Source: Sneathiella aquimaris
Lineage (GTDB): Bacteria; Pseudomonadota; Alphaproteobacteria; Sneathiellales; Sneathiellaceae
Direction of reading: 5' to 3'
NCBI RefSeq assembly: GCF_026409565.1
Contig: NZ_CP112881.1
Location: 3,541,501-3,605,500 of the forward strand
Length of the DNA stretch: 64,000 nt
Part shown: positions 27,134 to 44,380 of the stretch, piece by piece
Layout: every line of letters begins with the position of its first letter
Position numbering within the stretch: position 1 is the first letter of the stretch
Notes under the pieces: generated by a model
What the model was told of the DNA's origin: nothing
Database searches by the model: none
The model's input: only the letters and a program-made list of their open reading frames with translations
Position numbers and translations under genes: made by a program

Positions 27134-27273
27134 TCGCAATTTGAAAGGCGTTGGTTGGTGAAAGCCTTGCTTCACAAATCAGAATATGTGTAAAGACATG
27201 CGAACCTTGGCATAAACATTGCGTAATGTTACGCACTCTGTTTTTCACGACACCCAAAAGGCCTGTAATTAAA

Positions 27274-28068
27274 ATGACCGCGTTTCAGAATGTTCGCTTT
27301 ATTCTTACCGATGTAGACGACACCCTAACCTATGAAAGTTCTCTGCCTGCGGAAACGTTTCAGGCTCTCCATAATCTGAGGGAGGCTGGTTATATTGTCA
27401 TCCCGGTGACGGGAGGGTGCGCAGGATGGTGTGATCAAATGGCACGGATCTGGCCGGTAGAAGCGGTCATTGGTGAAAACGGGGCCTTTTATTTACGCAA
27501 AGACGAACAGGGCCATGTTCATTATTGCCATTGGGAGGATGCTGCGAAGCAGAAGCAACTCCAGCAAAAGCTGCTGTCTTTGGCGGCCGACGCCCTGCAA
27601 CTGGTTCCAAAGGCACGATTAGCCAAAGATCAGGCTTACCGTCTGGCTGATGCGGCCATTGATTACAATCAGGATGTCTCAGGTATAACGAAAGAAGAAG
27701 TCGCAAAAATCGTTTCCGTGTTTGAAACGGCAGGGGCAAATGCACGTCCAAGCTCAATTCATGTAAACGCCTGGTTCGGGTCCTATAACAAGAAGATGAT
27801 GGCCTTGAAATTACTGAAGGACTGTTTTGATCTGGACGCGGAAAAAGCCAAAGAACAAGTTCTTTACATTGGTGATGCGCCGAATGACGAGCCAATGTTC
27901 GAGTATTTTCCGATTAGCTTCGGTGTTGCCAACATCCGCAAGGTCTGGGACAGTTTACATCATCGCCCTCGCTGGGTGACCCAATCCAGTGGTGGATATG
28001 GCTTTGCTGAAATGGCCGACGGTTTATTGTCCACGGATATGGCCTCTGCCAAATTCAGCCTAGCTTAA
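27274..28068 (+). CDS. HAD-IIB family hydrolase
   Basis: A 264-residue phosphatase of the HAD superfamily, Cof/sugar-phosphatase type. Motif I is LTDVDDTLTYE (nucleophile Asp and acid Asp), motif II the Thr in IPVTGGCAGW, motif III probably the Lys in SYNKKMMALKLL, and motif IV GDAPNDEPMFE. Family members act on sugar phosphates or mannosyl-phosphoglycerate. No Shine-Dalgarno is seen at 27274, and an ATG at 27226 is an alternative start. It is not part of the urease cluster by function. Its end overlaps the convergent regulator by 9 bp. Confidence 0.9.
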   Translation: MTAFQNVRFILTDVDDTLTYESSLPAETFQALHNLREAGYIVIPVTGGCAGWCDQMARIWPVEAVIGENGAFYLRKDEQGHVHYCHWEDAAKQKQLQQKLLSLAADALQLVPKARLAKDQAYRLADAAIDYNQDVSGITKEEVAKIVSVFETAGANARPSSIHVNAWFGSYNKKMMALKLLKDCFDLDAEKAKEQVLYIGDAPNDEPMFEYFPISFGVANIRKVWDSLHHRPRWVTQSSGGYGFAEMADGLLSTDMASAKFSLA

Positions 28069-29427
28069 CTCCTTTTTATCAATCCCGTATTTGCGCAACC
28101 GAAGATAAAGCGTTTTATACGGGATTCCCAAACTGTCTGCTGTGCGTTGCATGGAGCCTTCTGTTTCAGCAAGAGTTTTCATGATTATCGCCTTTTCATA
28201 GGCTTCCAGACGGGCTTTCAACTCAGTACTCTCTTCCTGCGGCAGTCCTTCGTCATGTGGCATGCGAACTGCCGGTAGACCAAGAACATGCCGTTCCGCT
28301 GCGCTGATCAGTTCCCGTACATTACCGGGCCACGCATATTCAATAATTTCCAGATCTTTCAAACTGCTAATCGGGGGAGGGGTTTTGCCAAGACGCCGCG
28401 CAGCCTTTTCAACAAAAAAGCGAAACAGCAGCGGAATGTCTTCTTTACGATCGCGAAGCGGCGGGATGCTGAGTTCAGCGACATGGAGGCGATAATACAA
28501 ATCAGCCCGAAAGGTTCCCTCCTGAGCCAGCTGATAAAGATCAGCCTTAGCCGCAGCAACAACCCTGATATCCAGTGGCACACTTCTGTTCCCGCCAATT
28601 GGCTCAACAACCCGGTCTTGTAATACCCGCAAAAACCTGACCTGGATATCCATGGGCATTGATTCAACTTCATCCAAAAACAACGTCCCGCCATTGGCGT
28701 GCTCAAGACGGCCGACCCTCCGATTTTGCGCCCCGGTAAACGCCCCCTTCTCATGCCCGAACAACTCGCTCTCTATAATGCTCAACGGCATTGCCCCGCA
28801 ATTCAAAGCGACAAAATTCCGGTCTTTGCGTGGACCACTGTCATGTAACCGCCGGGCAACGGCTTCTTTCCCCGCCCCCGTTTCCCCGCGAATCAACACA
28901 TTGGCATCGACCTGAGCCAAGTTTTTAATCGCGTCTTTCAGCGCCACCATCGACGGAGCATTGCCGATCAGCCCCCCATACAAAATGCCATTCTGTTCAA
29001 TCTCCTGCACTTCCCGATGTAAGGATCGGTTCTCCAGGACTACCTCTCGATGCAGAACAGCTCGTTTGACAGACTCAATCAATCGCGACGGTTGAAGAGG
29101 TTTTTGCAGGAAATCCCAGGCGCCCATCCGCATGGCACCAACAGCCAGTTCAACATCGCCGTGCCCCGTCAACAGAATGACCGGCAATTCAGGATCAAAG
29201 TCAACAGCCTGTTTTAAAAGCGCCAATCCGTCCATTTCAGGCATACGAATGTCACTGACGATAATTGCCGGGCAGTTTTCCTGTAAATTTCCGAGCGCCT
29301 GTGCGGCCCGGTTAAAGGTTCTTACAGGAAATCCGGCAAGTTGCAGGCTTTGTGCACAGCTGCTTAAAATTGCCTGATCATCGTCAACCAAATAAACACC
29401 TACTGGCATTTCGTGTCCAGCGCTCAT
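28060..29427 (-). CDS. sigma-54-dependent response regulator (NtrC/DctD type)
   Basis: A 455-residue activator. The receiver domain (about 8-125) has the acidic pair VDDD and the phospho-acceptor Asp59 in VSDIRMPEMDG, with the switch T/K pair in LLTGHGD and LQKPLQ. The AAA+ domain has Walker A GETGAGKEA and the loop GAFTGA that contacts sigma-54, plus the arginine-finger region FRADLYYRL. The C-terminus is a Fis-type helix-turn-helix (RTADSLGIPYKTLYLRLRKYG). The start at 29427 shares a base with the kinase stop (TAATG). It most likely activates the phnD promoter at 32065. Confidence 0.95.
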   Translation of the reverse strand: MSAGHEMPVGVYLVDDDQAILSSCAQSLQLAGFPVRTFNRAAQALGNLQENCPAIIVSDIRMPEMDGLALLKQAVDFDPELPVILLTGHGDVELAVGAMRMGAWDFLQKPLQPSRLIESVKRAVLHREVVLENRSLHREVQEIEQNGILYGGLIGNAPSMVALKDAIKNLAQVDANVLIRGETGAGKEAVARRLHDSGPRKDRNFVALNCGAMPLSIIESELFGHEKGAFTGAQNRRVGRLEHANGGTLFLDEVESMPMDIQVRFLRVLQDRVVEPIGGNRSVPLDIRVVAAAKADLYQLAQEGTFRADLYYRLHVAELSIPPLRDRKEDIPLLFRFFVEKAARRLGKTPPPISSLKDLEIIEYAWPGNVRELISAAERHVLGLPAVRMPHDEGLPQEESTELKARLEAYEKAIIMKTLAETEGSMQRTADSLGIPYKTLYLRLRKYGIDKKELS

Positions 29428-31823
29428 TACCAAATTTCCTCTGCTTGTAATGGAAGATTTGCGGCCTTTGTATTCTTCGGTAAAATCAGGGTAAAGCACG
29501 CGCCGCCTTCCGCACGATTGCTAACTGTCAGGCTTCCGCCCAGTGTCCGCACAATATTGTAGGAAATTGACAATCCCAGCCCCATTCCCTTACCAACCTC
29601 TTTAGTTGTGTAGAAGGGATCGAACACATTTTTCAGCGTCTCTTCTGGAATTCCGGGACCATTATCATAGACTGAAATGGCAACCTGACCTTCCTGATGC
29701 TCTTGTAGATCGAGGCTTAAATGTTTGTCATTTTGCCGGGACGTTGCATCCAGTGCGTTGGCAATCAGGTTGATAAAAACCTGCTCCAGACGCAGACCAT
29801 CCGTGGTCACAAATATCCCGTCAAGAATATGGGAATTGTGAATAACAGCACCTTCCTGCGCGATCCGAACCTGAAACAAAGAGAGCGCCCGACCCAAAAC
29901 ATGACCAAGATCGGTTGGCGAAAAATTCAGGACCGGTTGTCTGGCCAATGTCTGAAGATGGGATGCAAGTTCAATCATGCGCTCCACCTGGGTTTGAATA
30001 TTTCGCAATGCTTCTCCAGCGTCTGTATAGTCACCTCGTTCCAAAAGCAGATTCACATTATGAAGCCACGATGCGACCGCCATCAGGGGTTGGTTAAACT
30101 CGTGTGAAATACCAGATGCCATTTTACCCAACGCAGCCAGTTTACTGGCCTGTATCAGTTCCTCCTTTGTGCTTCGCAGAGCACTTTCCGTACGTATCCT
30201 TGTCTCATTTTCATGGCGGAGTTCCTCGTTGGCCCGACGTAACTCGGTGGTTCTGTCCGCGACTGTTTGTTCCAGATTTTCTTGTGCCTGTTTGCGATCT
30301 GTAACGTCATAAATCGTGAAAATAAACTTTTGTCCACTACGCTGCTGAATACCGCGAACCGCCACATCACTGGGGAAATTGCTTCCATCTCGCCTGCAGG
30401 CCTTAAACTCCCGAACCACAGGCGTCGGCGTTGCCTGTTCTTCCCGGTCAAGTTCAGTGCGACTTTCCTCCAGCATCTTCAATACAGCTGTCCCTTCGGC
30501 TGGCGCCACCAGCGCTGTAATATCAAGGTCCGGGGTTGGTCCCTGCCTTGCATAGGCATATCCAAACAATGTACGCGCGGTATGACTGAGAAACTCGATT
30601 TTGCCCCTGGCATCCGTCATCACAAGACCTGCAACAGAACTTTCAATAATGGCACGAGTTTGCTGTTCCTCCACTTCCCGTGCTGTCGTTCTAAAGACTT
30701 CCAATGCTTCGGCCATGTGCGAAATTTCATCGGTCCCGCTCGTATCAATCATCGTATCCAGCTCGCCCGCAGCGATACGGTTCATCTTATCCCCCAACTG
30801 GGTCAGCCGACGAACAATCGACCGTCGCACAAAAATCAAACTGGCGATAAATGAAAGAACGAAAACAATACCGACAGACAGGGCCAATTGTGTTGTTCTT
30901 AGTGAAATAAGCTTTCGGGCTTCTTTCGAGGATTGCGCAATTGCGTTCTGGGTCGCCTTCATATTCAGCGCCAGGATCAGGCGGATCTGAACAATTTTAA
31001 CCCGTGTTTTTTCCAGACTTCGATCAATATTAAGCGCCGTTTTCAATTGCTCCCGACGTAAAAAAAGAAGGTTACCATCCCCTTCCAGATGCTTGATCAG
31101 TTGCCGGGCGGGTCTTGTCAGGAAAGGCGTCTGCCTTTCAGAGGCTGCAATATCAGCAAGCAATTCCTGTCCCTTAGCCGCCAGCGCGGCGGAAACCACC
31201 TCCAGCCTTTCCAGCGATTTAACGTCCGTCAGATAATACAAATCATCATAAAAATCGCGGGCCAAACGTTCAATTTGCAAGATTTCTAATGGCAGAACCT
31301 TAGATTCCTGTGCGCTGACAATCTTGAAAACCGTATCTTGAAACTGACGGTAGCTTTTTTTCAAGCGCTGTAACGCCTCATCTTGAGAGGCCTCTAACCG
31401 CAATCGGTATTGTGCAGTTCCGTTCAGGAGTGCCAAACTTGTATGCAGATTTTCAATCAGCGCCTCAATACGTTCGCGATTTCCCTGTTCCTCATGTTCG
31501 ATATTCTGCAGCTCGTTCAGTTTACTCAGGCGGTCCAGATAATCGGTCATGCGGGCTGAGATCGCCTGCCGTTCGCTTTCTGATCTCGCCTCTGCCAGAT
31601 CGGGTCCAACATCCAGAAAATCGTCGGCAATACTGAACAGATTAATGGTTTTTGATAACGAGGGAACGCGGACTTCGTTAATCTCATTGATTTGACCGCC
31701 CAGCTCTTCAAAGGCAAGCCAGGAGAGCAGCATGACGACGAGCATGATCGCGCTGATAGCGGCAAATACAAGATTTACACGAGCCCCAATTCCAGAGAAC
31801 GAGCGCGGCGAAAGTGTTTTCAT
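29427..31823 (-). CDS. membrane sensor histidine kinase
   Basis: A 798-residue kinase. One membrane helix at about 16-38, a helical periplasmic sensor domain of some 270 residues, a second helix at about 312-332, HAMP (333-385), a PAS domain (390-515), a coiled coil, the phosphorylated His574 in GISHEFNQPL, and an ATPase domain with N-box NLIANALDA (about 685), DNGPG and GMGLG. The large periplasmic region suggests direct sensing or contact with a binding protein. It is divergent from phnD, so it probably responds to the ligand of that transporter, which is inference. It forms a TAATG-coupled pair with the regulator. Confidence 0.95.
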   Translation of the reverse strand: MKTLSPRSFSGIGARVNLVFAAISAIMLVVMLLSWLAFEELGGQINEINEVRVPSLSKTINLFSIADDFLDVGPDLAEARSESERQAISARMTDYLDRLSKLNELQNIEHEEQGNRERIEALIENLHTSLALLNGTAQYRLRLEASQDEALQRLKKSYRQFQDTVFKIVSAQESKVLPLEILQIERLARDFYDDLYYLTDVKSLERLEVVSAALAAKGQELLADIAASERQTPFLTRPARQLIKHLEGDGNLLFLRREQLKTALNIDRSLEKTRVKIVQIRLILALNMKATQNAIAQSSKEARKLISLRTTQLALSVGIVFVLSFIASLIFVRRSIVRRLTQLGDKMNRIAAGELDTMIDTSGTDEISHMAEALEVFRTTAREVEEQQTRAIIESSVAGLVMTDARGKIEFLSHTARTLFGYAYARQGPTPDLDITALVAPAEGTAVLKMLEESRTELDREEQATPTPVVREFKACRRDGSNFPSDVAVRGIQQRSGQKFIFTIYDVTDRKQAQENLEQTVADRTTELRRANEELRHENETRIRTESALRSTKEELIQASKLAALGKMASGISHEFNQPLMAVASWLHNVNLLLERGDYTDAGEALRNIQTQVERMIELASHLQTLARQPVLNFSPTDLGHVLGRALSLFQVRIAQEGAVIHNSHILDGIFVTTDGLRLEQVFINLIANALDATSRQNDKHLSLDLQEHQEGQVAISVYDNGPGIPEETLKNVFDPFYTTKEVGKGMGLGLSISYNIVRTLGGSLTVSNRAEGGACFTLILPKNTKAANLPLQAEEIW

Positions 31824-31956
31824 CGGTTAATCCGAGCAATCCATCAGCGGGGTCCAATTCATATCGCCTAAGGGAGAAGAGGTTCAGCAAACAGGAAACT
31901 GCAGCCGGCGTCCATCTTCAGATATATTCCATTGTGGCGCAGAATTAGTCAATCTG

Positions 31957-32001
31957 TCAAAATTGTCAGATCAGCGGACTGTCTATCTGACAATTTTGAC
32001 T
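31957..32001. promoter_or_regulatory. perfect 16-bp inverted repeat, probable activator site
   Basis: GTCAAAATTGTCAGAT (31957-31972) and ATCTGACAATTTTGAC (31986-32001) are exact inverse complements around a 13-bp spacer. The centre is about 88 bp upstream of the -24 element of the phnD promoter, a normal distance for an enhancer bound by a sigma-54 activator. No T-run follows in either direction, so a terminator is unlikely. Confidence 0.75.
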
Positions 32002-32064
32002 GAACTTGAAAAGTTTTCTGACTTAAGGCCGTCCGAAATATCTGTTTTTCAGCGTTTTTAAAAG

Positions 32065-32081
32065 TTGGCCCGACGTTTGCG
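32065..32081 (+). promoter_or_regulatory. sigma-54 promoter upstream of phnD
   Basis: TTGGCCCGACGTTTGCG matches TGGCACG-N4-TTGC with one change (C for A). GG is at 32067-32068 and GC at 32079-32080, in correct spacing. The start of transcription should be near 32092, leaving a leader of about 78 nt before phnD. The adjacent sigma-54 activator gene supports the call. Confidence 0.82.
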
Positions 32082-32169
32082 TAAATAAAGTGCATCACTC
32101 CTGAACCAAAAAACAAAAATCAAGAGTTGATGAAACAAAATATTAAAAGCTGATGGGAGGCTTATTAAA

Positions 32170-33186
32170 ATGCGCTCTAAATTATTACTCTGCTCGGCAT
32201 TGCTGGGTGGCTTCCTGGTTTCAGGTATGACCACTCCCGCACATGCTGATTGTGCTCGTGGCTCACTTGATGAGAAATTTTGCGACGTTGATGGCGATCT
32301 GGTTGCGGATCCGCCAATGGACGAGTCAAAATGGAAGGACCCAAGCACTCTGGTGTTCACCTATACACCGGTTGAAGATCCTGCTGTGTATCGCGATGCG
32401 TTCGCTGATTTTCAGGAATATCTAAGCAAAGCAACAGGTAAAAAAGTTATTTATTACACTGTGCAGTCAAACTCTGCTGAAATTGAAGCCATGCGTTCTG
32501 GCCGTTTGCACATTGCCGGCTTTTCAACAGGACCAACAGGCTTTGCTGTAAATCTTGCCGGTGCCGTCCCGATTGCGGTTAAAGGTGGCCCGGATGGTTT
32601 CCAGGGTTACAACCTGATCCTGATTACCCGCAAAGACAGTGGTATCAAGTCACTGGCTGACCTGAAGGGCAAGAAAGTCGCGCACACGTCTCCATCGTCA
32701 AACTCCGGTAATCTTGCGCCACGTGCCTTGTTGCCAGATGAAGGCATTACACCGGACAAAGACTATACTGTTGCCTTCTCAGGCAAGCATGACCAGTCCA
32801 TCCTGGGTGTTGTCTCTGGTGACTATGATGCGGCCCCTGTGGCCTCTGACGTTTATGAGCGTATGGTTGCTCGTGGTGTTGTCAATGCAGACGAGATTGA
32901 AATTCTATATCGCAGTCCAAAATTCCCAACTTCGTCATTTGCATATGCACATGATCTGAAGCCGGAACTGGTTCATAAAATTGTGGGTGCATTCCATACT
33001 TACCGTTTCCCTGAATCCATGCAAAAAGCCTTTAAAGGGGCTGATCGGTTCTATCCGATTACCTATAAAGCTGACTGGGAAGTGATCCGGACAATTGCCA
33101 ATGCAACCGGCGCCTCATACGACCGTAAAGGGTTGAGTGCAATGGCCCAGAAAGAAGCGGCTAAACGCGCGAAGAAAAAACAATAG
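32170..33186 (+). CDS. phnD: phosphonate-type ABC transporter substrate-binding protein
   Basis: A 338-residue periplasmic protein of the PhnD group. The signal peptide ends near TPAHADC (about residue 26). FTYTPVEDPAVYRDAFADF starts the binding fold, QSNSAEIEAMRSGRLHIAGF and KKVAHTSPSSNSGNLAPRAL are the conserved anion-binding segments, and the last 20 residues are basic. GGAGG lies close upstream. The ligand could be phosphonate, phosphite or a phosphate ester; no C-P lyase or phosphonatase gene is in the window, so it is left open. Confidence 0.92.
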   Translation: MRSKLLLCSALLGGFLVSGMTTPAHADCARGSLDEKFCDVDGDLVADPPMDESKWKDPSTLVFTYTPVEDPAVYRDAFADFQEYLSKATGKKVIYYTVQSNSAEIEAMRSGRLHIAGFSTGPTGFAVNLAGAVPIAVKGGPDGFQGYNLILITRKDSGIKSLADLKGKKVAHTSPSSNSGNLAPRALLPDEGITPDKDYTVAFSGKHDQSILGVVSGDYDAAPVASDVYERMVARGVVNADEIEILYRSPKFPTSSFAYAHDLKPELVHKIVGAFHTYRFPESMQKAFKGADRFYPITYKADWEVIRTIANATGASYDRKGLSAMAQKEAAKRAKKKQ

Positions 33187-33239
33187 AAACGAGGAAATTC
33201 CTCCTAGATTGTTGAGCTAACCGCTCAGCTTTCGAACTG

Positions 33240-33276
33240 CTGGATTGCCTGGACGCCGAATATCCTTGCAATCCAG
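33240..33276 (+). terminator. intercistronic hairpin after phnD
   Basis: CTGGATTGC and GCAATCCAG form a 9-bp stem around a 19-nt loop, followed by CTTTCGTTTT. It sits 54 nt after the phnD stop inside the 185-bp gap before phnC, and could give partial termination so that phnD is made in excess. Confidence 0.65.
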
Positions 33277-33371
33277 CTTTCGTTTTAACAATACGACAAC
33301 TGCCACCGATTGCCGTGGAAAGTCAAAGAGACGCGCTTCGAAGAACGTCTGATGGATAGGATAGTAAGATT

Positions 33372-34175
33372 ATGGCCGAACCCGCAAGCCACACCCATGA
33401 GTCCCCGACGGCGGTGTCCGACCGCCAACTTGTCATCAAAGAACTGACCAAAGAATACAAACCCGGTTCGCCCGTATTGAAGGGCATCTCCCTCACATTG
33501 GATGCGAACGGGATTACCGCCATTATTGGGCCCAGCGGAACGGGTAAAAGTACTTTAATCCGCTGCATCAATCGCCTGATTGACCCCTCTTCCGGAGAAA
33601 TCCTGTTTCAGGGCAAAGATCTTGCCAAATTGCGCGGCTCAAGCCTCAGGCAGGCGCGCTGCAATATCGGGATGGTTTTTCAGGAATATAATCTTGTGGA
33701 ACGCCTGAGTGTCATGGAAAATGTCCTTAGTGGGCGTTTGGGATATGTCTCTGCTTGGCGCGCCTGGCTGCGTAAGTTTTCTGCGGCCGATGTCCAAACA
33801 GCTTTTGATCTTCTCGATCAGGTCGGGATGTCTGATTTTGCCGACCAGCGCGCAGATGCTCTTTCGGGAGGCCAAAGGCAGCGCGTCTCGATTGCCCGCG
33901 CGCTGATGCAATCACCTGCGATTATTCTGGCGGATGAGCCAACCTCCTCTCTTGATCCGAAGACATCTGTCGAAATTCTCGAACTTATGACCGAGCAGGC
34001 GCGGAACCGCGAGATCCCTGTTATCATTAACATTCATGATGTTTCCCTCGCCAAACGGTTCGCCGATCGAATTGTCGGGATGTCAAATGGGCATGTGGTC
34101 TTTGACGGGAAACCTGAAGACCTTCAGGACGAGCATCTAAAAGCCATCTATGGCGGTGAGGATTGGTTGTCATGA
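33372..34175 (+). CDS. phnC: phosphonate-type ABC transporter ATP-binding protein
   Basis: A 267-residue ATPase. Walker A is GPSGTGKST, the Q-loop [20 protein letters not shown] carries the RLS...VLSGRLG segment typical of PhnC, the signature is [15 protein letters not shown] and Walker [14 protein letters not shown]. The first 20 residues are an uncharacteristic Pro/Ser-rich extension. Its stop overlaps the first phnE gene as ATGA. Confidence 0.95.
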
Positions 34176-34966
34176 GCCAGATATCAACCACAGGAAAACG
34201 CAAATATGTCCCAAAGCGGAATTGGCTTGCGACCATAAGCTGGGTCGTTCTTGCGCTTTATGTGATGTATGTTTTCAGCCTGTTTGAACTTAGCGGCGAG
34301 CGGTTTGTTGCAGGTCTGGGCAACGGCGCCGATTTTATTGGCCGTATGTTCCCTCCCAATTTTGAGCGGTATAACCTTCTGATCGAAGGGCTGCTGGAAA
34401 GTTTACAAATTGGAATTATCGCGACAACTGCGGGTGTCCTGTTTTCGTTGCCGCTTGGTTTTCTGGCGGCCCGAAACCTGATGCCCTCCTGGATTACCTG
34501 GATCGCCCGCGGTATTATTGTCGCTTGTCGGTCTTTCCATCCGGTGATTGTCGCAATCCTGTTTGTTAAAGCGGTTGGTTTTGGTGCACTAGCTGGTGTG
34601 TTGGCACTGATTGTTGCGTCAATTGGCTTTATCGCAAAACTGTTTGCCGAAGCCATCGAAGAAATTTCACTGAAACAGATTGAAGCCATCCGGGCGACGG
34701 GTGCTTCGTTCCCAAACATCATTTTGTTTGGCGTTCTGCCGCAAGTCATGGGCCGCTTTATCGGTTTTGTCTCCTATCAACTGGATTCAAACTTGCGGAA
34801 TTCGACCATGGTCGGATTGGTCGGCGCAGGCGGCATTGGCGGCACTCTTTTCGCAGCCTTCCAGCGCTTTGATTACGATTTCGTCGCAGCCATTCTAATT
34901 TCAATCATCGCCGTTATCATGGCCGGTGAAGGCATCAACAATATTATGAGGAAACTGTATCGATGA
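34172..34966 (+). CDS. phnE: phosphonate-type ABC transporter permease, first copy
   Basis: A 264-residue inner-membrane permease. About six helices are visible, with [20 protein letters not shown] after a periplasmic loop and the coupling motif [35 protein letters not shown] is the conserved end segment of PhnE. ATG at 34172 is chosen for the 4-bp overlap with phnC; three further codons upstream are possible. It likely forms a heterodimer with the next permease. Confidence 0.94.
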
Positions 34967-35790
34967 CAGACACAACGACTGTTTCCCAAAAGGGCAACCT
35001 TGAAAAGCGTCAATGGACCCGCTTCACACCCTTCGAACGGACCGCCCGCTTTCTGTTTTATATCCTTGTCGTCTCGGCCATTGTCCTCTCTTTGCGGACA
35101 ATCGAAATCATCCCGGAATTCCTGTATGATGCACCGGAACAAATTGCGGATATGTTTAATCGGATGTGGCCGCCAGATCAGAGTTACTATCCGGACACCA
35201 TCCATGCTGCATTGATGGAAACGCTTCATATCGCGACGCTCGGCACTCTTTTTGCTGTCCTCTTTGCGATCCCAGTGGGCGTGATGGTGGCCGAAAATGT
35301 CACCCCGTATAAACCGCTGAACTGGCTGGCCCGATTTATTCTCGTGTCCTCGCGCAGTATTAACTCATTGGTCTGGGCGTTGTTATTTGTTGCGATTTTC
35401 GGCCCCGGCCCGCTAGCGGGTGCGTTGGCCATTGCCTTTCGTTCCATTGGCTTTATCGGAAAACTGTTCGGTGAAGCGCTGGAAGAAAGCAACAGAGGCC
35501 CGATTGAGGCGCTTCAGGCAACGGGCGCGTCGAAACTCAGCATCATGTTCATGGGCTACTGGCCGCAGGTTCTGCCAACCTTCTGGTCTATTCTGCTGTT
35601 CCGCTGGGACATCAATATCCGGGAATCTGCGGTTCTTGGGCTTGTTGGTGCGGGCGGTATTGGCGTTGCCTTAAGTACAGCCCTGGAACTGTTCTATTGG
35701 GACAGGGTTGCCATGGTCCTGATCAGTATGTTGGTCGTGGTCGCCGCCGTAGAACTTCTGGTCACCCAAATTCGGAAACGAATTATCTGA
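34963..35790 (+). CDS. phnE: phosphonate-type ABC transporter permease, second copy
   Basis: A 275-residue permease similar in plan to the previous gene. EALQATGASKLSIMFMGYWPQ is the coupling loop, and [18 protein letters not shown] the conserved end. The N-terminus is longer and basic before the first helix at about residue 30. It overlaps the first copy as ATGA. Two tandem phnE genes are common in these transporters and probably give a heterodimeric channel. Confidence 0.94.
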   Translation: MTDTTTVSQKGNLEKRQWTRFTPFERTARFLFYILVVSAIVLSLRTIEIIPEFLYDAPEQIADMFNRMWPPDQSYYPDTIHAALMETLHIATLGTLFAVLFAIPVGVMVAENVTPYKPLNWLARFILVSSRSINSLVWALLFVAIFGPGPLAGALAIAFRSIGFIGKLFGEALEESNRGPIEALQATGASKLSIMFMGYWPQVLPTFWSILLFRWDINIRESAVLGLVGAGGIGVALSTALELFYWDRVAMVLISMLVVVAAVELLVTQIRKRII

Positions 35791-35873: not shown

Positions 35874-37289
35874 TCACCCCTTTATTGTCTGATAGGCTTC
35901 CAAAGCCCTGTTTCTTGATTTCTTCAGGTCAACAATAGGCGCCGGATAGGTTTGTCCAAGAACCACATCTGCGTCCGCCAACGCCTCCTTAGGCGCGTCC
36001 CAAGGGCTAAACAGGTATTTATTCTGAAGATCCGCGAGTTCCGGCACATAGCGGCGAATATAATCCCCATTCTCGTCAAATTTCTGGGCCTGCATGACCG
36101 GATTAAAGATCCGAAAATATGGTGCCGCATCAGCGCCACAGCCGGCAATCCATTGCCAGCCCGCACTATTATTGGCCAAATCAGCATCCACCAGACAATC
36201 CCAGAACCAACGCTCTCCTTCCCGCCAATCCACCAACAGGTTTTTCACCAGAAAAGAGCCGACCACCATTCGAACACGATTATGCATATACCCGGTCTGC
36301 CACAACTCCCGCAGCCCCGCATCCACCAGCGGTATACCGGTTTGGCCTTTTTTCCACGCCTCCAACCCGTCAGGGTTCTTGTCCCAGGGGAAAGCGTCAA
36401 ATTTCGATTGAAGGTTTTTGCGCGGCAGTTCCTTATTATAATAAAGCAGACTATAGGAAAATTCCCGCCACCCTAGCTCACGACAGAAATGATCGACTTG
36501 ATCGCTTTCTTCCAGCGCCCGCGCCGCATACCAGGCCTGATTGGGTGACAGCTCGCCGAAATGCAAATGGGGCGAAATTCGCGACACGTAAGGCAGCGAA
36601 GGATGATCACGGCCTTTTTTATAATGCATCACACCATTATCCAGAAAATCAGCCAGCCGGACCTGTGCCGCTTTTTCGCCAATGGACCAGTCAGAAAGCA
36701 TTGCCTGATCCCATTTAACATCCGGCAGCAAAGACAGCGCATCAAGGGTGCATCCTTTGTCCTTCGGGACACCATAATTGGCGTTTTCCGGGGCTTCAAG
36801 AGGTCGCCTCGGGGGCTCAGTCGCCAAACAGCCTTTCGTGTAGAAGGGTGTAAAAACCCGATAGGGCGTGCCGTCTTTCTTTGAAATCGTCCAAGGTTCC
36901 CACAACAATGATCCGTTAAAACTGCTCACAGTAATCCCGCCCTGTGTCAGTATCTCCTTCAGGGCCCCATCTCTGGATATCTGCCAAGGTTCATAACAGC
37001 GGTTCCAGAAAACTGCCTCAACGCCGTTCTGTTCACAAAGCGCCGGCAATATAGAGAGGGGATCTCCTTTGTAAAAAGAAAGATGACCATCAAACTGTTC
37101 CTTTAGTACGGCCAGCGACCGGTGCAACCAAGCCCGGCTGGCCGCGCCCAATGCGCATTCTCCGGCATTTTCATCATCCAGAATATACACCGGCAGCACG
37201 CGCCCTTGCTGAACCGCATGATGGAGCGCCGGATTATCAGACACCCTTAAATCCTGACGGAGCCAATAAATAACGGGAGAAGAAGACAT
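35874..37289 (-). CDS. phrB: deoxyribodipyrimidine photolyase
   Basis: A 471-residue CPD photolyase that repairs UV pyrimidine dimers with blue light. The N-terminal antenna domain starts YWLRQDLRVSDNPALHHAV; the C-terminal FAD domain contains PHLHFGELSPNQAWYA, GIPLVDAGLRELWQTGYMHN and RMVVGSFLVKNLLVDW, then WQWIAGCGADAAPYFRIFNP, all conserved for class I enzymes. The length is normal. It stands alone and is convergent with the phn operon. Confidence 0.96.
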   Translation of the reverse strand: MSSSPVIYWLRQDLRVSDNPALHHAVQQGRVLPVYILDDENAGECALGAASRAWLHRSLAVLKEQFDGHLSFYKGDPLSILPALCEQNGVEAVFWNRCYEPWQISRDGALKEILTQGGITVSSFNGSLLWEPWTISKKDGTPYRVFTPFYTKGCLATEPPRRPLEAPENANYGVPKDKGCTLDALSLLPDVKWDQAMLSDWSIGEKAAQVRLADFLDNGVMHYKKGRDHPSLPYVSRISPHLHFGELSPNQAWYAARALEESDQVDHFCRELGWREFSYSLLYYNKELPRKNLQSKFDAFPWDKNPDGLEAWKKGQTGIPLVDAGLRELWQTGYMHNRVRMVVGSFLVKNLLVDWREGERWFWDCLVDADLANNSAGWQWIAGCGADAAPYFRIFNPVMQAQKFDENGDYIRRYVPELADLQNKYLFSPWDAPKEALADADVVLGQTYPAPIVDLKKSRNRALEAYQTIKG

Positions 37290-38683
37290 AAAGGCAAAAC
37301 TTCCTGTTTACTAATCTGACAGATTTAAATGTATTTAAGTGTACGCTGCAAACTGACAATCGGATCAAACCATAATCAAATCAAGAACCTGCCGATACGA
37401 TACGCACAACCCGCCCTTCTCCCTGCACAGCCTGTAACCCCAATGATTTTTTTTACGATTGGAATGGTACATTTCCTGCCAATAAAGACTGGTTTGTCCG
37501 CATTGAACAAACAAAATCTACAGTATTCCCACAGGATCGGACAGCGTCACAAAAACGCTCAACAACAACCAACCCACACAGAAAATCCACAATTCCATGA
37601 AATTACTGAGAATTTTCAGTAACGAACAGGCGCCTGCCAATAACTTGCGTAACACCTTATGCGACATGACCAACAAACTAATGAATAGCCCGATGTTTTG
37701 CAGACACCCTGCGGGTTCAGCCTGTACTGTTTTTCGGCATCTTAAATCACCATGCACGGTGTGCCGTTGCAGGGGAAACATGACATAGACCCTCAACAAT
37801 TCGGCCTTTATTCAGCAAACTAAGTGAAACACTCAGTTTGACAGACCCGCCCGGACAGGGTGCACTGCAAATCCTTTTCATCTTTTCAGAGTCATTAAAA
37901 AATGGTCGAAAAAAACGGTATCAGTAAGATGGCCTGTGAGTGTCCTTAATTTGAAAAGCGTTTATGGGAAGGTCTCCTTGGGAGTCCGCGGTTTTATGAT
38001 GATTTAATTTCATCGATAATAACGCCACTGATGGATTCACGTATGAACGCGGAAACATCCCTCAGTCATACAAGGAAAATTCGGTCACTCTCTTGATATC
38101 TATTGAAGTTCCCTCAAGTGTATATTTCAATACTCAAATATCCGCTCGAATACAGAGTGCTTTACCTGTTGGTCATTTACCATACGCAACTTAAATATTA
38201 ACTGATATTAAGCGTCGCGCTGATAAAAATTCCGTCGATCATTGTAATATCTCCGTTCGCCATTGGTTTCAGCATGCCTGATACAAGCACTTGAACAGAT
38301 AATCCCAAACTGTTCCTGAAGAGCTAATCCGCCTGGCCGTAAAAAGTAGAAACGCATGCCCAAAGGCTCTGGAGGAAATATCAGATTTTATTTCGCCTGA
38401 AGTATATTTGGAACCTGTACTTCTATTGAAAAAAAGCGAACCATCTAAGCGGTTCGACTCGATACATTAAAACGGATATAGAAAACAAAATCTGGCAAAA
38501 ATGAAAAATCAACATATCGCAAACCTCTTGAATAAGATCCAAGACGCGGCTCCGGTGCCTGAAGAAAGCGAAGAGTTTCAAAGGCTCTTATGAAATGTAA
38601 CTTACCACAAGCCCTGGGACCTAATGTGGGTCTGATCCTCATTTTCTGATTTTCATAAATGGAAATCAAATCGATAAGAAGAA
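37290..38683. other. 1.4-kb gap without a supported gene
   Basis: Only short open frames of 60-97 codons occur, on both strands, with no family signal, no good start context and unlike composition. The stretch abuts the left end of the integrative element. It may be decayed DNA from an older insertion. A membrane-like frame at 37518-37799 (minus) and a frame at 38445-38729 (minus) were considered and not accepted. Confidence 0.6.
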
Positions 38684-38701
38684 ATAATGGCGGAGGGAGG
38701 G
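38684..38701 (+). repeat. attL core (direct repeat of the tRNA-Ser 3' end)
   Basis: ATAATGGCGGAGGGAGGG, identical to 44363-44380. The flanking bases differ on both sides, so the identity stops at 18 bp. It marks the end of the element away from the integrase gene. Confidence 0.87.
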
Positions 38702-38750
38702 TCCGCCTGCATTTACTAAATTCCAACAAATTCTGACAATATTTTAACTC

Positions 38751-38770
38751 TACCCATACTTCTACCCATA
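38751..38770 (+). repeat. paired TACCCATA repeats near attL
   Basis: TACCCATA at 38751-38758 and 38763-38770, 12 bp apart start to start. The same pair with the same spacing and orientation occurs at 44223 and 44235 by the integrase start. This suits arm-type integrase binding sites. Confidence 0.65.
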
Positions 38771-38850
38771 TTTAAAATCGACGTACAACCTATTCCGCTA
38801 CTAAGGAAGCGCGTTCAATATCTGTTCCTTTCTACTATAGATAAACGCAG

Positions 38851-38923
38851 GCCCGCAGCTCAGTTGGTAGAGCAACTGACTTTTAATCATTGGGTCAAGG
38901 TTCAAGCCCGAGTGAGGGCACCA
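38851..38923 (+). pseudogene. degenerate tRNA-Lys(TTT)
   Basis: The D-arm GCTCAGTTGGTAGAGC, the anticodon loop CTTTTAA and a 3' CCA are clear, but the sequence is 73 nt instead of 76. The acceptor strands GCCCGCA/TGAGGGC pair only if bases 8 and 9 are missing and leave one mismatch; the anticodon stem has a C-T mismatch and the T stem (CAAGG/CCGAG) has two. It is probably non-functional, or a strongly diverged tRNA carried by the element. Confidence 0.65.
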
Positions 38924-39220
38924 AAATAGATTTCCCTCGCGCGTGCGCACGTACTGGTCCGAAAATCAATTAAGCTTTCGGCAATATGTAAGTAACATTG
39001 AGTGAGACACTTTTTTAGTGACCCCAAAAACTCCACACACTGGAATTTAAAAACCTAGCATTTAAGAAAACCATAAGTTCAACATCTATAGTTTTCCCTA
39101 ATTGATTGGGCTTGTTCAACTTCAAGTTTTTTGAAGTTTTATCTTACCTAGATGTGAGGTTTTGTGAGGCTTCATTAACTGAAAGTAGTATTGATTAAAG
39201 CTCGCCAAGAATACCTCAGG
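38924..39220. other. 297-bp gap without a gene
   Basis: AT-rich, no coding frame with support. It separates the tRNA-Lys remnant from the lipoprotein gene within the integrative element. Confidence 0.55.
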
Positions 39221-39496
39221 CTATTTTACCGTTTTCTCACAAATTCGAAGCTCACCATATCCTTTCTTGTACTCACAATTAAGGCCACATTCATAGTCTC
39301 CTTTTTGAAGAGAACTAATTTGATTGAGCAAGCTAATTGAATTAACTCTGCATTCGTCTAGTGTCGCGAAGACACCAACAAATTTATGAACCGTTAGATT
39401 ACTCCGGTCCGGATAAGCGTAACCTTCCCATTTATCATCGTCGCAACCAGTAAGGACAAACAATGAAATTGCAGCCCAAAATATTACATTGTTCAT
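39221..39496 (-). CDS. small predicted lipoprotein of the element
   Basis: A 91-residue protein with a lipoprotein signal: a hydrophobic start NNVIFWAAISLFVL ending in the lipobox LTGC at about residue 18, then acidic DDDKWEG. The mature part has five further Cys residues or pairs (DECRVNS, YECGLNCEYK, RICEK), so disulfides in the periplasm are likely. I do not recognise the family. It stands at the edge of the element away from the integrase and has its own upstream gap. No good ribosome binding site was noted. Confidence 0.65.
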   Translation of the reverse strand: MNNVIFWAAISLFVLTGCDDDKWEGYAYPDRSNLTVHKFVGVFATLDECRVNSISLLNQISSLQKGDYECGLNCEYKKGYGELRICEKTVK

Positions 39497-39776
39497 GGTT
39501 ACTCTCTCTAGAGTTAAAAATATTATTAAACCGATAGTTATCTTGCATGAAAGTTCACAAATCCTTATATTTATTTTTAAGCGCCTTCGGGGGTTACCAG
39601 CTTGCTGGTTTCGGTGTAGGGAATTGGACCTGACGTGCCGTTCGTACTCCGAAGCGCTTCCCTATTTCATAACCTTCTGAGTTAAATTTTAAGCTCTAGT
39701 TTCCCCTGTGCTGTTCCACTGCATACGAACGTTGCGGCAAGCAAAGTAATTAAAACGTTTGAGTAATTTTTTAGAA

Positions 39777-40388
39777 CTACCAGCCAAAATAGGCAGCCGC
39801 TGCCAAGTTACTTCTCTGTGCCGCTCGCTCAGATTTATCTTTCAATTTCCTATAGGTTTTCCAATGCATTCCCTTGGGCTTTGCAGGGAATGGGTCGCCC
39901 GTGTAGGTGCTGCCACCCAAACGCTGGCGGATGTCCTGAGCGGTCGTTAAGTGCCGATACATTGGGGTTTCATGCTGGCTTTGATAAGCAAGGTTATAGG
40001 CTTTACGACTTGCGAAGATATCACCGTTGGGGGGAGCATATAGTTTTGCAACCCGAGTACCATTGGACGGACATAGAAACCACCAGCGTAAGCCACCGTA
40101 ATTAGGGCGCGTGGTTGTTAGGTGGACTCGATAATCTATAGGCTTTCCCTTGTGGCTGTAATGCAGTCGCATCCAAGCGGTATCCGGGGTAATCAGGTTT
40201 GCTTCATATCCAATGCTGGCGACTTTTTCTCCATCGCTCACCCTGTTCCAAATGAGGGGACCAGAAACATGCTTACCAGGTACAACGAGTTTTTGACGTA
40301 TCAATTTGCATAGATCGATTGTTAGTCCATCTTCAATAGTCGTTTTTGTATTCCATCTATACCAACTACCAGAACCGCTACCGCCCAT
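39777..40388 (-). CDS. MGGSGSG-type element protein with lost zinc-ribbon cysteines
   Basis: A 203-residue protein of a type common in phages and integrative elements, recognised by its MGGSGSGSWYRW start, the middle GYEANLITPDTAWMRLHYSH and NYGGLRWWFLCPSNGTRVAKLY. As I recall the family, a CPxCG ... CRxC zinc ribbon usually sits in the last segment; here it reads CPSNG and ASRKAYNLAY, so three of four cysteines are missing. The start at 40388 has AAAGGCG upstream; ten extra residues are possible. The C-terminus is basic. The function is unknown. Confidence 0.75.
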   Translation of the reverse strand: MGGSGSGSWYRWNTKTTIEDGLTIDLCKLIRQKLVVPGKHVSGPLIWNRVSDGEKVASIGYEANLITPDTAWMRLHYSHKGKPIDYRVHLTTTRPNYGGLRWWFLCPSNGTRVAKLYAPPNGDIFASRKAYNLAYQSQHETPMYRHLTTAQDIRQRLGGSTYTGDPFPAKPKGMHWKTYRKLKDKSERAAQRSNLAAAAYFGW

Positions 40389-40530
40389 TTGTACGCCTTT
40401 CTTTATTATCGAAATCAATAGGAAAAATAGTGCCTAGTGCCTTCAAGGGGTTTCTGTTTTATGAGATATGATTTCACCCCCTTATAAAACTCACTTTCGT
40501 CTTTCCCCATGGGTATATGGTTATTATATA

Positions 40531-40548
40531 CGTTCCCGAAATAGGACC
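40531..40548 (+). repeat. CGTTCC-N4-ATAGGACC repeat, copy 1
   Basis: CGTTCC-CGAA-ATAGGACC, matching 40606-40623 (CGTTCC-TTAG-ATAGGACC) at all but the four middle bases. The two copies are 75 bp apart in the same orientation around a strong hairpin. Confidence 0.5.
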
Positions 40549-40578
40549 ATGAGGACCCCTCAAAAAGGCCCTCACGGT
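40546..40578 (-). terminator. strong hairpin between two element genes
   Basis: ACCATGAGGACC (40546-40557) and GGCCCTCACGGT (40567-40578) form a 12-bp stem; on the minus strand the two differences are G-T wobble pairs, so the structure suits a transcript from the gene ending at 40602. The T-run is inside the loop rather than behind the stem, so it may be a pause or processing site. Confidence 0.5.
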
Positions 40579-40601
40579 TCCTGAAACAAGACAGTAGAAA
40601 A

Positions 40602-41066
40602 TTAGCGTTCCTTAGATAGGACCGTTAGAGGGTCGAGGTGGCTCATTTCGGGACCTATCTCTGTTTTTCGAAAGCACATTCCTGGCTTCCAATTTCGCCA
40701 ATCGTTTGTTGCCTGCTTCCCATTGCAGCCTTGATCCGTGATACGCCACAAAGTCGCCTTCCGACCCATCATGTGACCAATCTTCATAAGCTCAATAAAT
40801 CCTCTCTCTTCCAGCTCATAGAAAGCTGTCTGCACGCTGCTTCTGCCCACGCCAAGGCACTTGGCAGCCTGCCTGTAAGAAAGATGGACCTCGCCATTGT
40901 TAAAACCATTAAAACGGCTCCTCAATTCAAGCCACACTTTCACAGATACGGGTTTCAAACTCCTAAAAGCTTCACTCTGAGCCATTGAATAAGGAACCGG
41001 AATGAATTGTGGATTAGCATTCCGGCCCTTGGCATTTACCTTGGCTTTACTGCGCCTTCGCGTCAT
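40602..41066 (-). CDS. winged-helix protein of the element
   Basis: A 154-residue basic protein. After a Lys/Arg-rich start (TRRRSKAKVNAKGRN), FIPVPYSMAQSEAFRSLKPV precedes SYRQAAKCLGVGRSSVQTAFYELEERGFIEL, a clear winged helix-turn-helix of the kind seen in phage and plasmid regulators and replication proteins. The ATG at 41066 overlaps the previous gene by 20 bp. Repeats around its end may be its binding sites. Whether it regulates or initiates replication is not determined. Confidence 0.78.
   Translation of the reverse strand: MTRRRSKAKVNAKGRNANPQFIPVPYSMAQSEAFRSLKPVSVKVWLELRSRFNGFNNGEVHLSYRQAAKCLGVGRSSVQTAFYELEERGFIELMKIGHMMGRKATLWRITDQGCNGKQATNDWRNWKPGMCFRKTEIGPEMSHLDPLTVLSKER
40606..40623 (+). 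repeat. CGTTCC-N4-ATAGGACC repeat, copy 2
   Basis: Same-orientation partner of 40531-40548. It overlaps the last codons of the winged-helix gene, and a near-inverse copy of the half site (GGACCTATC) occurs at 40651-40659. Confidence 0.5.
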
Positions 41067-41349
41067 CAAACTCTCGCTCAAGCAACCTGACATTCGACCT
41101 AAGGACATAACGTGCATGCCTACCCGGAAACTGGCCTGTATGCGACTCATTAATCGTTTGGATATCTATATGATACTCGTGCCTCAAATTATGCACATAA
41201 GCGCTCCAGCGTGGCCCTGGCGTATCAATGGGGCTACATCCCCTCTTACCTGCCTCAATCATAGACTTCAGAGCCCAGGCATTGCGGCCACTAAGCGTGA
41301 TAATCTGAGACTCACTCAGACACCTTTCAATGGAGAATGTCAATTTCAT
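41047..41349 (-). CDS. small winged-helix domain protein
   Basis: A 100-residue protein. RCLSESQIITLSGRNAWALKSMI then GCSPIDTPGPRWSAYVHNLRHEYHIDIQTI and GRHARYVLRSNVRLLE form a pattern I know from alphaproteobacterial phage and island genes annotated as winged helix domain proteins. It starts with ATGA over the stop of the upstream small gene. A role in element gene control or DNA replication is inferred from this setting only. Confidence 0.78.
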   Translation of the reverse strand: MKLTFSIERCLSESQIITLSGRNAWALKSMIEAGKRGCSPIDTPGPRWSAYVHNLRHEYHIDIQTINESHTGQFPGRHARYVLRSNVRLLEREFDDAKAQ

Positions 41350-41519
41350 TTGACACCTCCAAACTTCATTAGCTCTGCGTAAAAAGCGGCTTGTGTAACT
41401 GGCAGGCCATGTTGGTGGGCGAGTCGTTTAACCTGCCACCTTTGCCGGGAATCTCGCACCATCGTTGACTTTGGTATTGGTGAATTGAAATTGAATGATA
41501 ATTGGGGTAGGCTACGCAT
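41346..41519 (-). CDS. 57-residue element protein
   Basis: A small basic protein ending RQRWQVKRLAHQHGLPVTQAAFYAELMKFGGVK-like (read in two parts: RQRWQVKRLAHQHGLPV and TQAAFYAELMKF), a helix-turn-helix-like pattern often found just before the small winged-helix gene in such islands. The ATG at 41519 is preferred because AGGA lies nine bases upstream; a TTG at 41600 would give 84 residues. No function is known. Confidence 0.6.
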   Translation of the reverse strand: MRSLPQLSFNFNSPIPKSTMVRDSRQRWQVKRLAHQHGLPVTQAAFYAELMKFGGVK

Positions 41520-41596
41520 GTTTTTCGTTCCTAATGAAAAATAAAGTTTCAAGGCCCCCATGCGTTGCAGCGCGTGGGGGTTTCTCCACGAATATC

Positions 41597-41806
41597 TCAA
41601 GAGTTTGCTCCCTTTAATTCAGGAAGGCTCTCGAGCCATTTCTCCAATTCTGATGTGGGAATTAGGGTACGCCGACCTGATTTACGGGCGACAATACGCC
41701 CAGCAGCGATTTCCTGATAAAGTTTGGTTCTTCCAATACCAGCCTCGGCACAAAACTCAGATACAGAAAGAACAGTTCGTTTAACTAGATGAGTTGATAG
41801 GTTCAA
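41597..41806 (-). CDS. AlpA/excisionase-like DNA-binding protein
   Basis: A 69-residue MerR-like single-domain protein. VLSVSEFCAEAGIGRTKLYQ is the helix-turn-helix, and IAAGRIVARKSGRRTLIPTSELEKWLE the wing and terminal helix of the excisionase family. The start is TTG, with AAGGA six bases upstream. In P4-like islands this protein switches integrase expression or excision. It is the first gene of the small-gene run and follows an inverted repeat at 41878. Confidence 0.85.
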   Translation of the reverse strand: MNLSTHLVKRTVLSVSEFCAEAGIGRTKLYQEIAAGRIVARKSGRRTLIPTSELEKWLESLPELKGANS

Positions 41807-41877
41807 AATGTTTCCTTTCTAAACAATCTCATAACGGACATTTAGAAAGATAAACGAACAGAATGGAGTCAAGTAGT

Positions 41878-41901
41878 CTCTAAGGTTAAGCAACCTTAGA
41901 G
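41878..41901. promoter_or_regulatory. perfect 10-bp inverted repeat upstream of the AlpA-like gene
   Basis: CTCTAAGGTT and AACCTTAGAG around a 4-bp centre AAGC. It lies between the end of the 349-residue gene and the AlpA-like gene, close to a TTGACT on the minus strand (41867-41872). No T-run follows. An operator for the AlpA-like protein fits best; a hairpin for the upstream transcript is the alternative. Confidence 0.5.
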
Positions 41902-41932
41902 AGGTTTGCCGTAAGCGGGAGAAAACTAGGCC

Positions 41933-42982
41933 CTAAAATTCACCGCCATGCATATTGTGAAGTATAAACTTGTATTGGTACTCAAAAACCATTTTGGAAA
42001 AGTAATTTTGATTCATTAGATTCTTCGCATCTAACCAAGATAATTCTGATACGTTTTGGAGTTTATTCACCGATGGTGGGCATCCATGATTCATGTAATA
42101 CATTGCGTAAAACGATACGGCTTTTTCAATTTTGTTAAAATGCTCAAACTGTCTATTTGCATCTATCACACCCAACAACTCCAAAGCCAAGTATGTTCCA
42201 ACCAAAATTTCCGAAGGTTGTTCATGCATATACTCAGGCTTACTCGCCGCTTCCATGTAATTCAGCATTCTTAAGGCTTTTCCATTTTTAACGCTTGCTG
42301 TCGGGTTGCCAGGAATCGCTGCAATTAGGTCAACTAATTCAATTGGAGGCGCTTCATTATTGTCGCTGCACGTTTTAAGCAGAAATACGCCTAGCCTATG
42401 CAACCAACTATTTCCAATTTTAGCTTGAGAAGAACAAGCAGGGTCTCCATGCACAGTTACTATATGCACATATCGCGATGCGACTATCGATAATAAAAAG
42501 GTCCAATCACCGGAATAGGGAGATCTGCGTATCAACCATGCCAACGCCCTCAGTTTACAAGCATAGCATGGATTTATCAGAAACTTCGTGATTGCTATCA
42601 ACGCCTCTAAATCTTGATATATCTTATATTTTTTGCTGTAGAACTCTTCGTCATTCGATTTGATAGTTATAAACTCGGTACAATCAACCATAAGCATACT
42701 CAGCTCTTGATAAATGTTACTCAAGGACTCGCCTTTATTATTTGGGCTGCGATTTATCTCAATTTCTAATATTTGCTGAACTGCTTCCGTAGACTCCTTC
42801 GAATAACAACTATGCTGCGCTATTGTTCCAATAAATTCCAGAGTAACAAAAACACGCTTGTTTACCGTCTCTTCTAAATCATCTTCACTTGTCCATTCTA
42901 AACAGTAGTCCTCCAGCTCGATAATGGCGTGGTACAATTTCTCTTCTTCTTTCAAGGAGTCTATTCCTGATTTGCTTGACAT
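41933..42982 (-). CDS. uncharacterised 349-residue protein coupled to the integrase
   Basis: I do not recognise this protein. It is intact, soluble, mostly helical by residue pattern and acidic at the start (KEEEKLYHAIIELEDYCLEW), with a CxxC in INPCYACKLRALAWLIRRS, more Cys in DPACSSQAKIGNSWLHRLG and LLKTCSDNN, and HNMHGGEF at the end. No P-loop, nuclease, kinase or membrane motif is visible. The ATG comes 3 bp after the integrase stop with no ribosome site, so it is probably translated by reinitiation. Codon use is AT-rich like the integrase. Cargo at this position is often defence- or fitness-related, which is inference. Confidence 0.75.
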   Translation of the reverse strand: MSSKSGIDSLKEEEKLYHAIIELEDYCLEWTSEDDLEETVNKRVFVTLEFIGTIAQHSCYSKESTEAVQQILEIEINRSPNNKGESLSNIYQELSMLMVDCTEFITIKSNDEEFYSKKYKIYQDLEALIAITKFLINPCYACKLRALAWLIRRSPYSGDWTFLLSIVASRYVHIVTVHGDPACSSQAKIGNSWLHRLGVFLLKTCSDNNEAPPIELVDLIAAIPGNPTASVKNGKALRMLNYMEAASKPEYMHEQPSEILVGTYLALELLGVIDANRQFEHFNKIEKAVSFYAMYYMNHGCPPSVNKLQNVSELSWLDAKNLMNQNYFSKMVFEYQYKFILHNMHGGEF

Positions 42983-42985
42983 AAT

Positions 42986-44221: not shown

Positions 44222-44222
44222 C

Positions 44223-44242
44223 TACCCATCCTCCTACCCATA
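44223..44242 (+). repeat. paired TACCCAT repeats upstream of the integrase
   Basis: TACCCATC at 44223-44230 and TACCCATA at 44235-44242, 12 bp apart, as near attL. The right copy continues as TACCCATACTTTAAA, similar to the TACCCATATTTAAAA near attL. They lie directly before the integrase ATG, so binding could both aid recombination and repress int. Confidence 0.65.
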
Positions 44243-44362
44243 CTTTAAAGAAGGATGTAAGCACACATTAGAAATTATCAATGAACAGAAGCGAATTAAA
44301 GGCCTTTTATAAACTGCTCTTTAGTGGATGCTGGTGAAAGTAGTTGGATGTAGAAAATCAGG

Positions 44363-44380
44363 ATAATGGCGGAGGGAGGG
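44363..44380 (+). repeat. attR core within the tRNA-Ser 3' end
   Basis: ATAATGGCGGAGGGAGGG, identical to 38684-38701. TGG at 44367-44369 is the CCA of the tRNA on the minus strand. Confidence 0.87.

Follow-up and report, generated by a model that had tools for sequence, protein, structure and literature searches.

A GpxB-like transporter operon in Sneathiella aquimaris with a probable private two-component, sigma-54-type switch for glycerol-phosphate uptake

The window, a 64,000-nucleotide stretch of the 3.94-Mb Sneathiella aquimaris genome (G000:C1:3541501-3605500), holds two divergent gene groups parted by a gap at 31824-32169: genes for a sensor histidine kinase and a response regulator run leftward, and a transporter operon (32170-35790) runs rightward in the order binding protein, ATPase and two permeases, that is, phnDCEE (Table 1). 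A HAD-IIB hydrolase gene stands tail to tail with the regulator gene. The regulator has an NtrC-type architecture, with PF00072, PF00158 and PF02954 all above cut-off, and falls below the NCBIfam equivalog cut-offs for NtrC (395.8/558.6), AtoC (368.5/714) and PgtA (289/650); the GAFTGA loop ascribed to it in a preliminary description made from the sequence is present as HEKGAFTGAQ. RpoN is encoded by a single copy in the genome, and a GlpD-like gene is present elsewhere in it. Beyond the operon, positions 36000-44457 have a lower G+C content (44-45%) and include an integrase-like ORF, recognised by eye at 42986-44221, beside a tRNA-Ser (44367-44457); this segment is a possible genomic island.

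Table 1 Features of the locus, in window coordinates
Feature	Position	Strand	Basis or remark
HAD-IIB hydrolase, candidate phosphatase	27274..28068	+	start codon chosen by us within ORF 27151-28068
Sigma-54-dependent response regulator	28060..29499	-	receiver, AAA+ with GAFTGA, Fis-type HTH
Sensor histidine kinase	29427..31823	-	HAMP, PAS, HisKA, HATPase; TorS-like helical periplasmic domain as modelled
UAS dyad 1 TCTGTCAAAATTGTCAGA, predicted regulator-binding site	31953..31970	.	repeat and dyad-pair searches, conservation
UAS dyad 2 TCTGACAATTTTGACTGA, predicted regulator-binding site	31986..32003	.	centre 33 bp from dyad 1 centre
Sigma-54 (-24/-12) promoter-like site TGGCCCGACGTTTGCG	32066..32081	+	10 of 12 scored positions
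GpxB-like substrate-binding protein, PhnD family	32170..33186	+	profile, sequence and pocket comparison
ABC ATPase, PhnC family	33372..34175	+	TIGR02315 above cut-off
ABC permease 1, PhnE family	34163..34966	+	TIGR01097 above cut-off
ABC permease 2, PhnE family	34963..35790	+	TIGR01097 above cut-off

For comparison we used 59 loci, namely the window and 58 stretches longer than 5 kb that hold a phnD-like gene. The kinase/regulator pair is present in 13 of these: the window and L031-L034, which we call Sneathiella type; L043, from Bisbaumannia pacifica (Halomonadaceae); L105-L109 (family f155); and L110-L111 (family f167). Families f155 and f167 are presumably Gammaproteobacteria, judging from the shared phylum and their place beside Bisbaumannia on the sequence tree. 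For the other 46 loci, absence of the pair refers to the fetched stretch, which in L047 and L067 ends less than 400 bp upstream of phnD; L037, L041 and L121 have a kinase-like stretch without a regulator match. The pair looks orthologous between groups, because in searches of the window's genome the L105 regulator finds the window regulator best (380 bits, versus 270 for the next) and the L111 kinase finds the window kinase best (188.5 versus 95.5 bits). Among 142 relatives, with at most 13 candidates scored per genome, the sensor domain occurs at E<1e-80 in five, precisely those in which phnD identity reaches 85%, and always beside phnD; G001, G017 and G024, whose phnD is about 75% identical, gave no kinase match at E 1e-12. 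The window's own genome encodes another kinase (G000:C1:1297885-1299114) with a weakly similar sensor region (25%). The literal GAFTGA loop occurs in 6/13 pair regulators; that of L111 reads GSFTGA, and the L032 regulator is cut off by a contig end.

The best PDB match of the binding protein is GpxB (9lf9, E 7.6e-84), followed by PtxB (8e-28). GpxB binds glycerol-1- and glycerol-3-phosphate, and in Phaeobacter it is induced on both of these carbon sources relative to glycerol (PNAS 2025; PMC12718374). The window protein is 48% identical to the tested GpxB, and of the nine GpxB ligand residues that we compared (T111, G112, Y138, S168, N169, S170, H199, R223 and T247 in 9LF9 numbering) the first eight are identical in it, while T247 is replaced by Ser255. 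The resulting pocket string, TGYSNSHRS, is found in all 13 kinase-pair loci; PtxB (5o2j) keeps 4/9 of these residues. In the tree, however, the window protein falls in a different clade from 9lf9 (the two large clades have bootstraps of 90 and 87), and this position, together with the 48% identity, means that specificity may have shifted. An AlphaFold model of the binding protein matches the fold of 9lf9; the model is poor (pLDDT 65.5), so the match adds little beyond sequence. Two loci depart from the common pocket, both possibly with a shifted ligand: L048 has tandem phnD-like genes, of which one encodes an altered pocket (AGYSNSHRQ), and L121 has the lone variant PGMSNSHHD.

Genes linked to glycerol phosphate accompany the transporter in 18/59 loci (at least one such gene, with queries picked after looking), and none of the genes searched for was seen in 41/59. 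In L105-L108 a glycerophosphodiesterase (GDPD) gene separates the regulator gene from the transporter genes, and every copy has a sigma-54 site to itself (9-11 of 12) together with a single GACA-N4-TGACCC dyad. In L109, which lacks this gene, a remnant resembling the GDPD start of its relatives was seen by eye approximately 300 bp upstream of phnD, as if the gene had been deleted. Just upstream of the GpxB-like transporter of two Desulfobulbaceae (L037:4424-5764 and L041:4397-5728) is a glycerol-1-phosphate dehydrogenase-like gene, above the Fe-ADH_2 cut-off and below that of the equivalog, an arrangement that suggests bacterial use of the archaeal lipid backbone. In a relative (G099:C17:30130-32060), the glycerol-1-phosphate dehydrogenase-like gene adjoins the HAD-IIB hydrolase gene. 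GlpD scores above cut-off in L113 and has an 86% homologue in L115, and DeoR/GlpR-like genes are present in L113, L115 and L118. HAD-IIB genes occur in 9/59 loci, the window and loci of other lineages with homologous transporters included, and histidine phosphatase genes in 4/59. The window's own HAD hydrolase is found in 13/142 genomes and near this transporter in the window's genome only; other genomes with a window-like phnD carry it on another contig. It is weakly similar, below cut-offs, to mannosyl-3-phosphoglycerate and phosphoglycolate phosphatases, and to call it a phosphatase is a guess.

These data also bear on whether the ligand is a related ester (a glycerophosphodiester, glycerol-2-phosphate, phosphoglycerate or a sugar phosphate) rather than glycerol-1- or glycerol-3-phosphate, with the switch otherwise as described below. 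The separate clade, the serine in place of Thr247 in all 13 pair loci, the faint likeness of the HAD-IIB hydrolase to phosphatases of other esters and the PgtA-like regulator and PgtB-like kinase, both below cut-off, would fit such a ligand; eight of nine identical contact residues and the glycerol-1-phosphate dehydrogenase-like and GDPD neighbours indicate glycerol phosphate instead, and we regard a related ester as unlikely. That the transporter takes up a phosphonate such as 2-aminoethylphosphonate to supply nitrogen or carbon, with the sigma-54 switch unchanged, we consider improbable: the Pfam Phosphonate-bd and TIGR01098 models and the PhnC and PhnE models are all above cut-off, but the binding protein scores 151.7 bits against a cut-off of 261.1 for the PhnD equivalog TIGR03431, the GpxB pocket is kept with its arginine, the C-P lyase protein PhnJ (PF06007) has no match in the window's own genome although the E. 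coli control was positive, and no phosphonate-degrading gene was recognised by eye in ORF lists covering part of the loci. A phosphonate ligand is weakened by the PhnD equivalog score, the kept pocket and the lack of PhnJ, and the phosphonate label of the transporter is probably wrong. The preliminary description had allowed for a nitrogen source, a carbon source or a ligand other than a phosphonate; the last of these fits best, given the GpxB match, the kept pocket, the glycerol-phosphate neighbours and the lack of PhnJ, and a nitrogen source has become less likely. Glycerol phosphate, on which membrane lipids are built, is likely to serve as a source of carbon (and phosphorus).

The promoter-like site in the gap departs from the sigma-54 consensus at two scored positions, having C for A in TGGCAC and G at the last position (12 positions scored, GG and GC required, threshold at least 9). 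Across the window, eight sequences come within one mismatch of the -24/-12 pattern against 6.15 expected in 64 kb; such a match alone is not rarer than chance, so the weight rests on position and conservation. Within the window's upstream stretch the site has p=0.020 (500 dinucleotide shuffles). A site scoring at least 9/12 lies at about -41 to -117 upstream of phnD in 13/13 kinase-pair loci (the start being extrapolated, these positions are approximate) and in 0/46 loci without the pair, of which 15 reach 8 and 4 reach 9 only at or past the start codon. This contrast has a Fisher p of about 2e-13 for loci that are not independent; since the kinase-pair loci form two groups on the binding-protein tree, their effective number is small. 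In the f155 regulators (L105-L109) the loop reads GSFTSA for GAFTGA in 5/5, yet the promoters of these loci score 9-11 of 12.

NtrC sites are spaced by three helical turns. Upstream of the -24/-12 site, in the gap between the kinase gene and phnD, a perfect 16-bp inverted repeat had been described; we confirmed it and found that it extends to 19 bp with one mismatch (arms 31953-31971 and 31985-32003, 95% complementary and 13 nt apart). Both arms are nearly palindromic in themselves, so that the feature consists of two 18-bp dyads rather than one repeat, and it is better read, from its sequence, as two palindromic sites (TCTGACA-N4-TGTCAGA) resembling paired NtrC-type enhancers. The GG of the sigma-54-like site follows the dyad centres at distances of 106 and 73 bp. 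An equally good pair arose in 0/200 mononucleotide shuffles of the window's 330-bp upstream stretch. Across the window's genome, 12 distinct places have 0-1 mismatch to the dyad pattern, and only at this locus do two stand side by side; with up to 2 mismatches there are 231 matches versus 104 for the reversed pattern, a palindrome counting on both strands.

In an unguided search for dyad pairs at offsets of 22-60, covering the 13 pair loci and 45 others (L047 was too short and was dropped), scores of at least 21 were reached in 7/13 kinase-pair loci versus 0/45 others; six of the seven pairs are spaced by 33-34 bp and that of L110 by 43 bp. The top-scoring pair was offset by 33-34 in 8/13 kinase-pair loci versus 5/45 others, and the scores of L032, L033, L043, L105, L109 and L111 fall within the range of the other loci. 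By eye, and post hoc, we could make out two dyads with a spacing of 32-34 bp in 11/13 kinase-pair loci; a clear pair at 33-34 bp is absent from L043 and L110, both by eye and in the pair search. Dyads of the Sneathiella type read TCTGACA-N4-TGTCAGA and those of L105-L109 TGGGACA-N4-TGACCCA, with the core GACA-N4-TG(T/A)C in common. We think it improbable that the dyads are instead the site of another factor or a terminator- or attenuator-like hairpin in the divergent gap: the repeat could fold as a hairpin and, read on the opposite strand, precedes the kinase start by about 130 bp. However, two dyads at 32-33 bp persist in L031-L034, the four further loci of the Sneathiella type, even though L031 and L032 have a shortened version of the long inverted repeat and in L033 and L034 no such repeat was found; L105-L109 keep two dyads at 34 bp within a different outer sequence, and pair scores of at least 21 occur with the kinase pair only.

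A -24/-12 element and upstream activator-like sites are thus both present, as judged from sequence and conservation. The preliminary description had proposed a private two-component, sigma-54 switch and had named lack of conservation of repeat or promoter near homologues as evidence against it; with the promoter-like site in 13/13 and the dyads in 11/13 pair loci, the comparison speaks for such a switch instead. Pho control was also considered as a contrast. Scored against the Pho-box consensus, the best candidate upstream of the window's phnD reaches 14 of 22 (p 0.82, 300 shuffles). Scores of at least 18 occur in 10/45 loci without the pair versus 1/13 with it (L032); with a Fisher p of 0.43, there is no significant Pho contrast between the two sets. 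Four relatives, L051, L054, L057 and L068, do look Pho-controlled.

How the kinase might sense its signal was approached through its periplasmic domain. A PDB sequence search with the sensor gave weak matches only, led by chemoreceptors that align over HAMP. An AlphaFold model built from 6 sequences (pLDDT 79.2) most resembles the TorS sensor domain (3i9y; Z 20.9, rmsd 2.2 A over 226 residues), with complexes of TorS and TorT also among the top fold matches. McpS-type domains follow at Z 17, about level with a designed helical bundle (6egc, 16.8), so that only the TorS matches stand clear. TorS is activated through a binding protein (PMC6321045), and McpS structures are listed in complex with malate and succinate; both sensing routes, through the GpxB-like protein and direct, are therefore compatible with the fold, and on the model sensing through the binding protein is plausible. 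Going further, gene order and sensor fold allow the tentative suggestion that the loaded GpxB-like protein docks on the TorS-like kinase and so switches on its own sigma-54 operon and, in f155, the glycerophosphodiesterase gene as well.

Together, these observations are best accommodated by a dedicated glycerol-phosphate uptake switch comprising the GpxB-like protein, the kinase, the regulator, the two dyads, the -24/-12 site and import, to which we give a probability of roughly 0.7; its regulation we infer from sequence, and its ligand from homology and neighbouring genes. Periplasmic glycerol phosphate (sn-glycerol-1- and/or -3-phosphate) would be bound by the GpxB-like protein. The TorS-like periplasmic domain of the kinase would detect the ligand, whether by direct contact or through the loaded binding protein, and the kinase would phosphorylate the regulator; this would bind both dyads, which stand about three helical turns from each other in front of phnD, and from there drive sigma-54 RNA polymerase at the -24/-12 site, yielding more transporter. 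The imported ester could then be dephosphorylated, perhaps by the HAD hydrolase, or oxidised by the GlpD-like protein that the genome encodes outside this locus, and so yield carbon and phosphate.

A paper of December 2025 reported that GpxB transports glycerol-1-phosphate, the archaeal lipid backbone, and asks for study of how this transport is regulated; its main text has 0 occurrences of 'two-component' or 'histidine kinase' and describes no regulator (PMC12718374). Among the open-access literature matches listed, one paper deals with GpxB and none with a sigma-54 system for it. In Ruegeria grown with an alga, a phosphonate transporter and glpD were both raised, and the account, as far as available, draws no link between them (PMC9870897). 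The present locus names a specific kinase, a regulator, predicted enhancer sites and a promoter as candidates for GpxB-type regulation. A clade of 'phosphonate' transporters, from alphaproteobacteria, Halomonadaceae and relatives, and sulfate reducers, can be re-labelled as likely glycerol-phosphate importers, which may be governed by their substrate rather than by phosphate starvation. If the binding protein does act as receptor for the kinase, a PhnD-family protein would both feed an ABC transporter and signal.

The locus resembles several known systems in part. Like the GpxB transporters of Phaeobacter and Marinobacter (PMC12718374; PDB 9LF9, 9LFB), it joins a PhnD-family binding protein to ABC partners; unlike them as published, its binding protein adjoins a kinase and a sigma-54 regulator, belongs to a separate clade and has Ser for Thr247. 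In AioXSR arsenic sensing (also ArxXSR and ArrXSR), a PhnD-family periplasmic protein, a histidine kinase and an RpoN-linked regulator are likewise encoded together, and a 2018 paper describes AioX orthologues as the only signalling members of a family whose others are ABC transporter parts (PMC5908839, PMC7533571). AioX and ArrX structures are indeed among the sequence matches of the window's binding protein and among the fold matches of its low-confidence model; unlike in AioXSR, however, this protein heads a complete transporter operon and has the ligand residues of GpxB. Salmonella PgtABC-PgtP also devotes a kinase and a sigma-54-interacting regulator to the uptake of three-carbon phosphates, independently of PhoB, and has in addition a separate sensor protein (PMC11077982, PMC10715179). 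Its transporter, PgtP, is an antiporter, whereas that of the window is of the ABC type, and the window pair stays below the NCBIfam cut-offs for PgtA (289 of 650) and PgtB (161.6 of 1000). Finally, the modelled sensor domain of the window kinase appears to share its fold with the TorS of TorS/TorT TMAO sensing (PDB 3I9Y, 3O1H), from which it differs in sequence, with about 12% identity and 159.4 bits against the TorS equivalog cut-off of 676.5.
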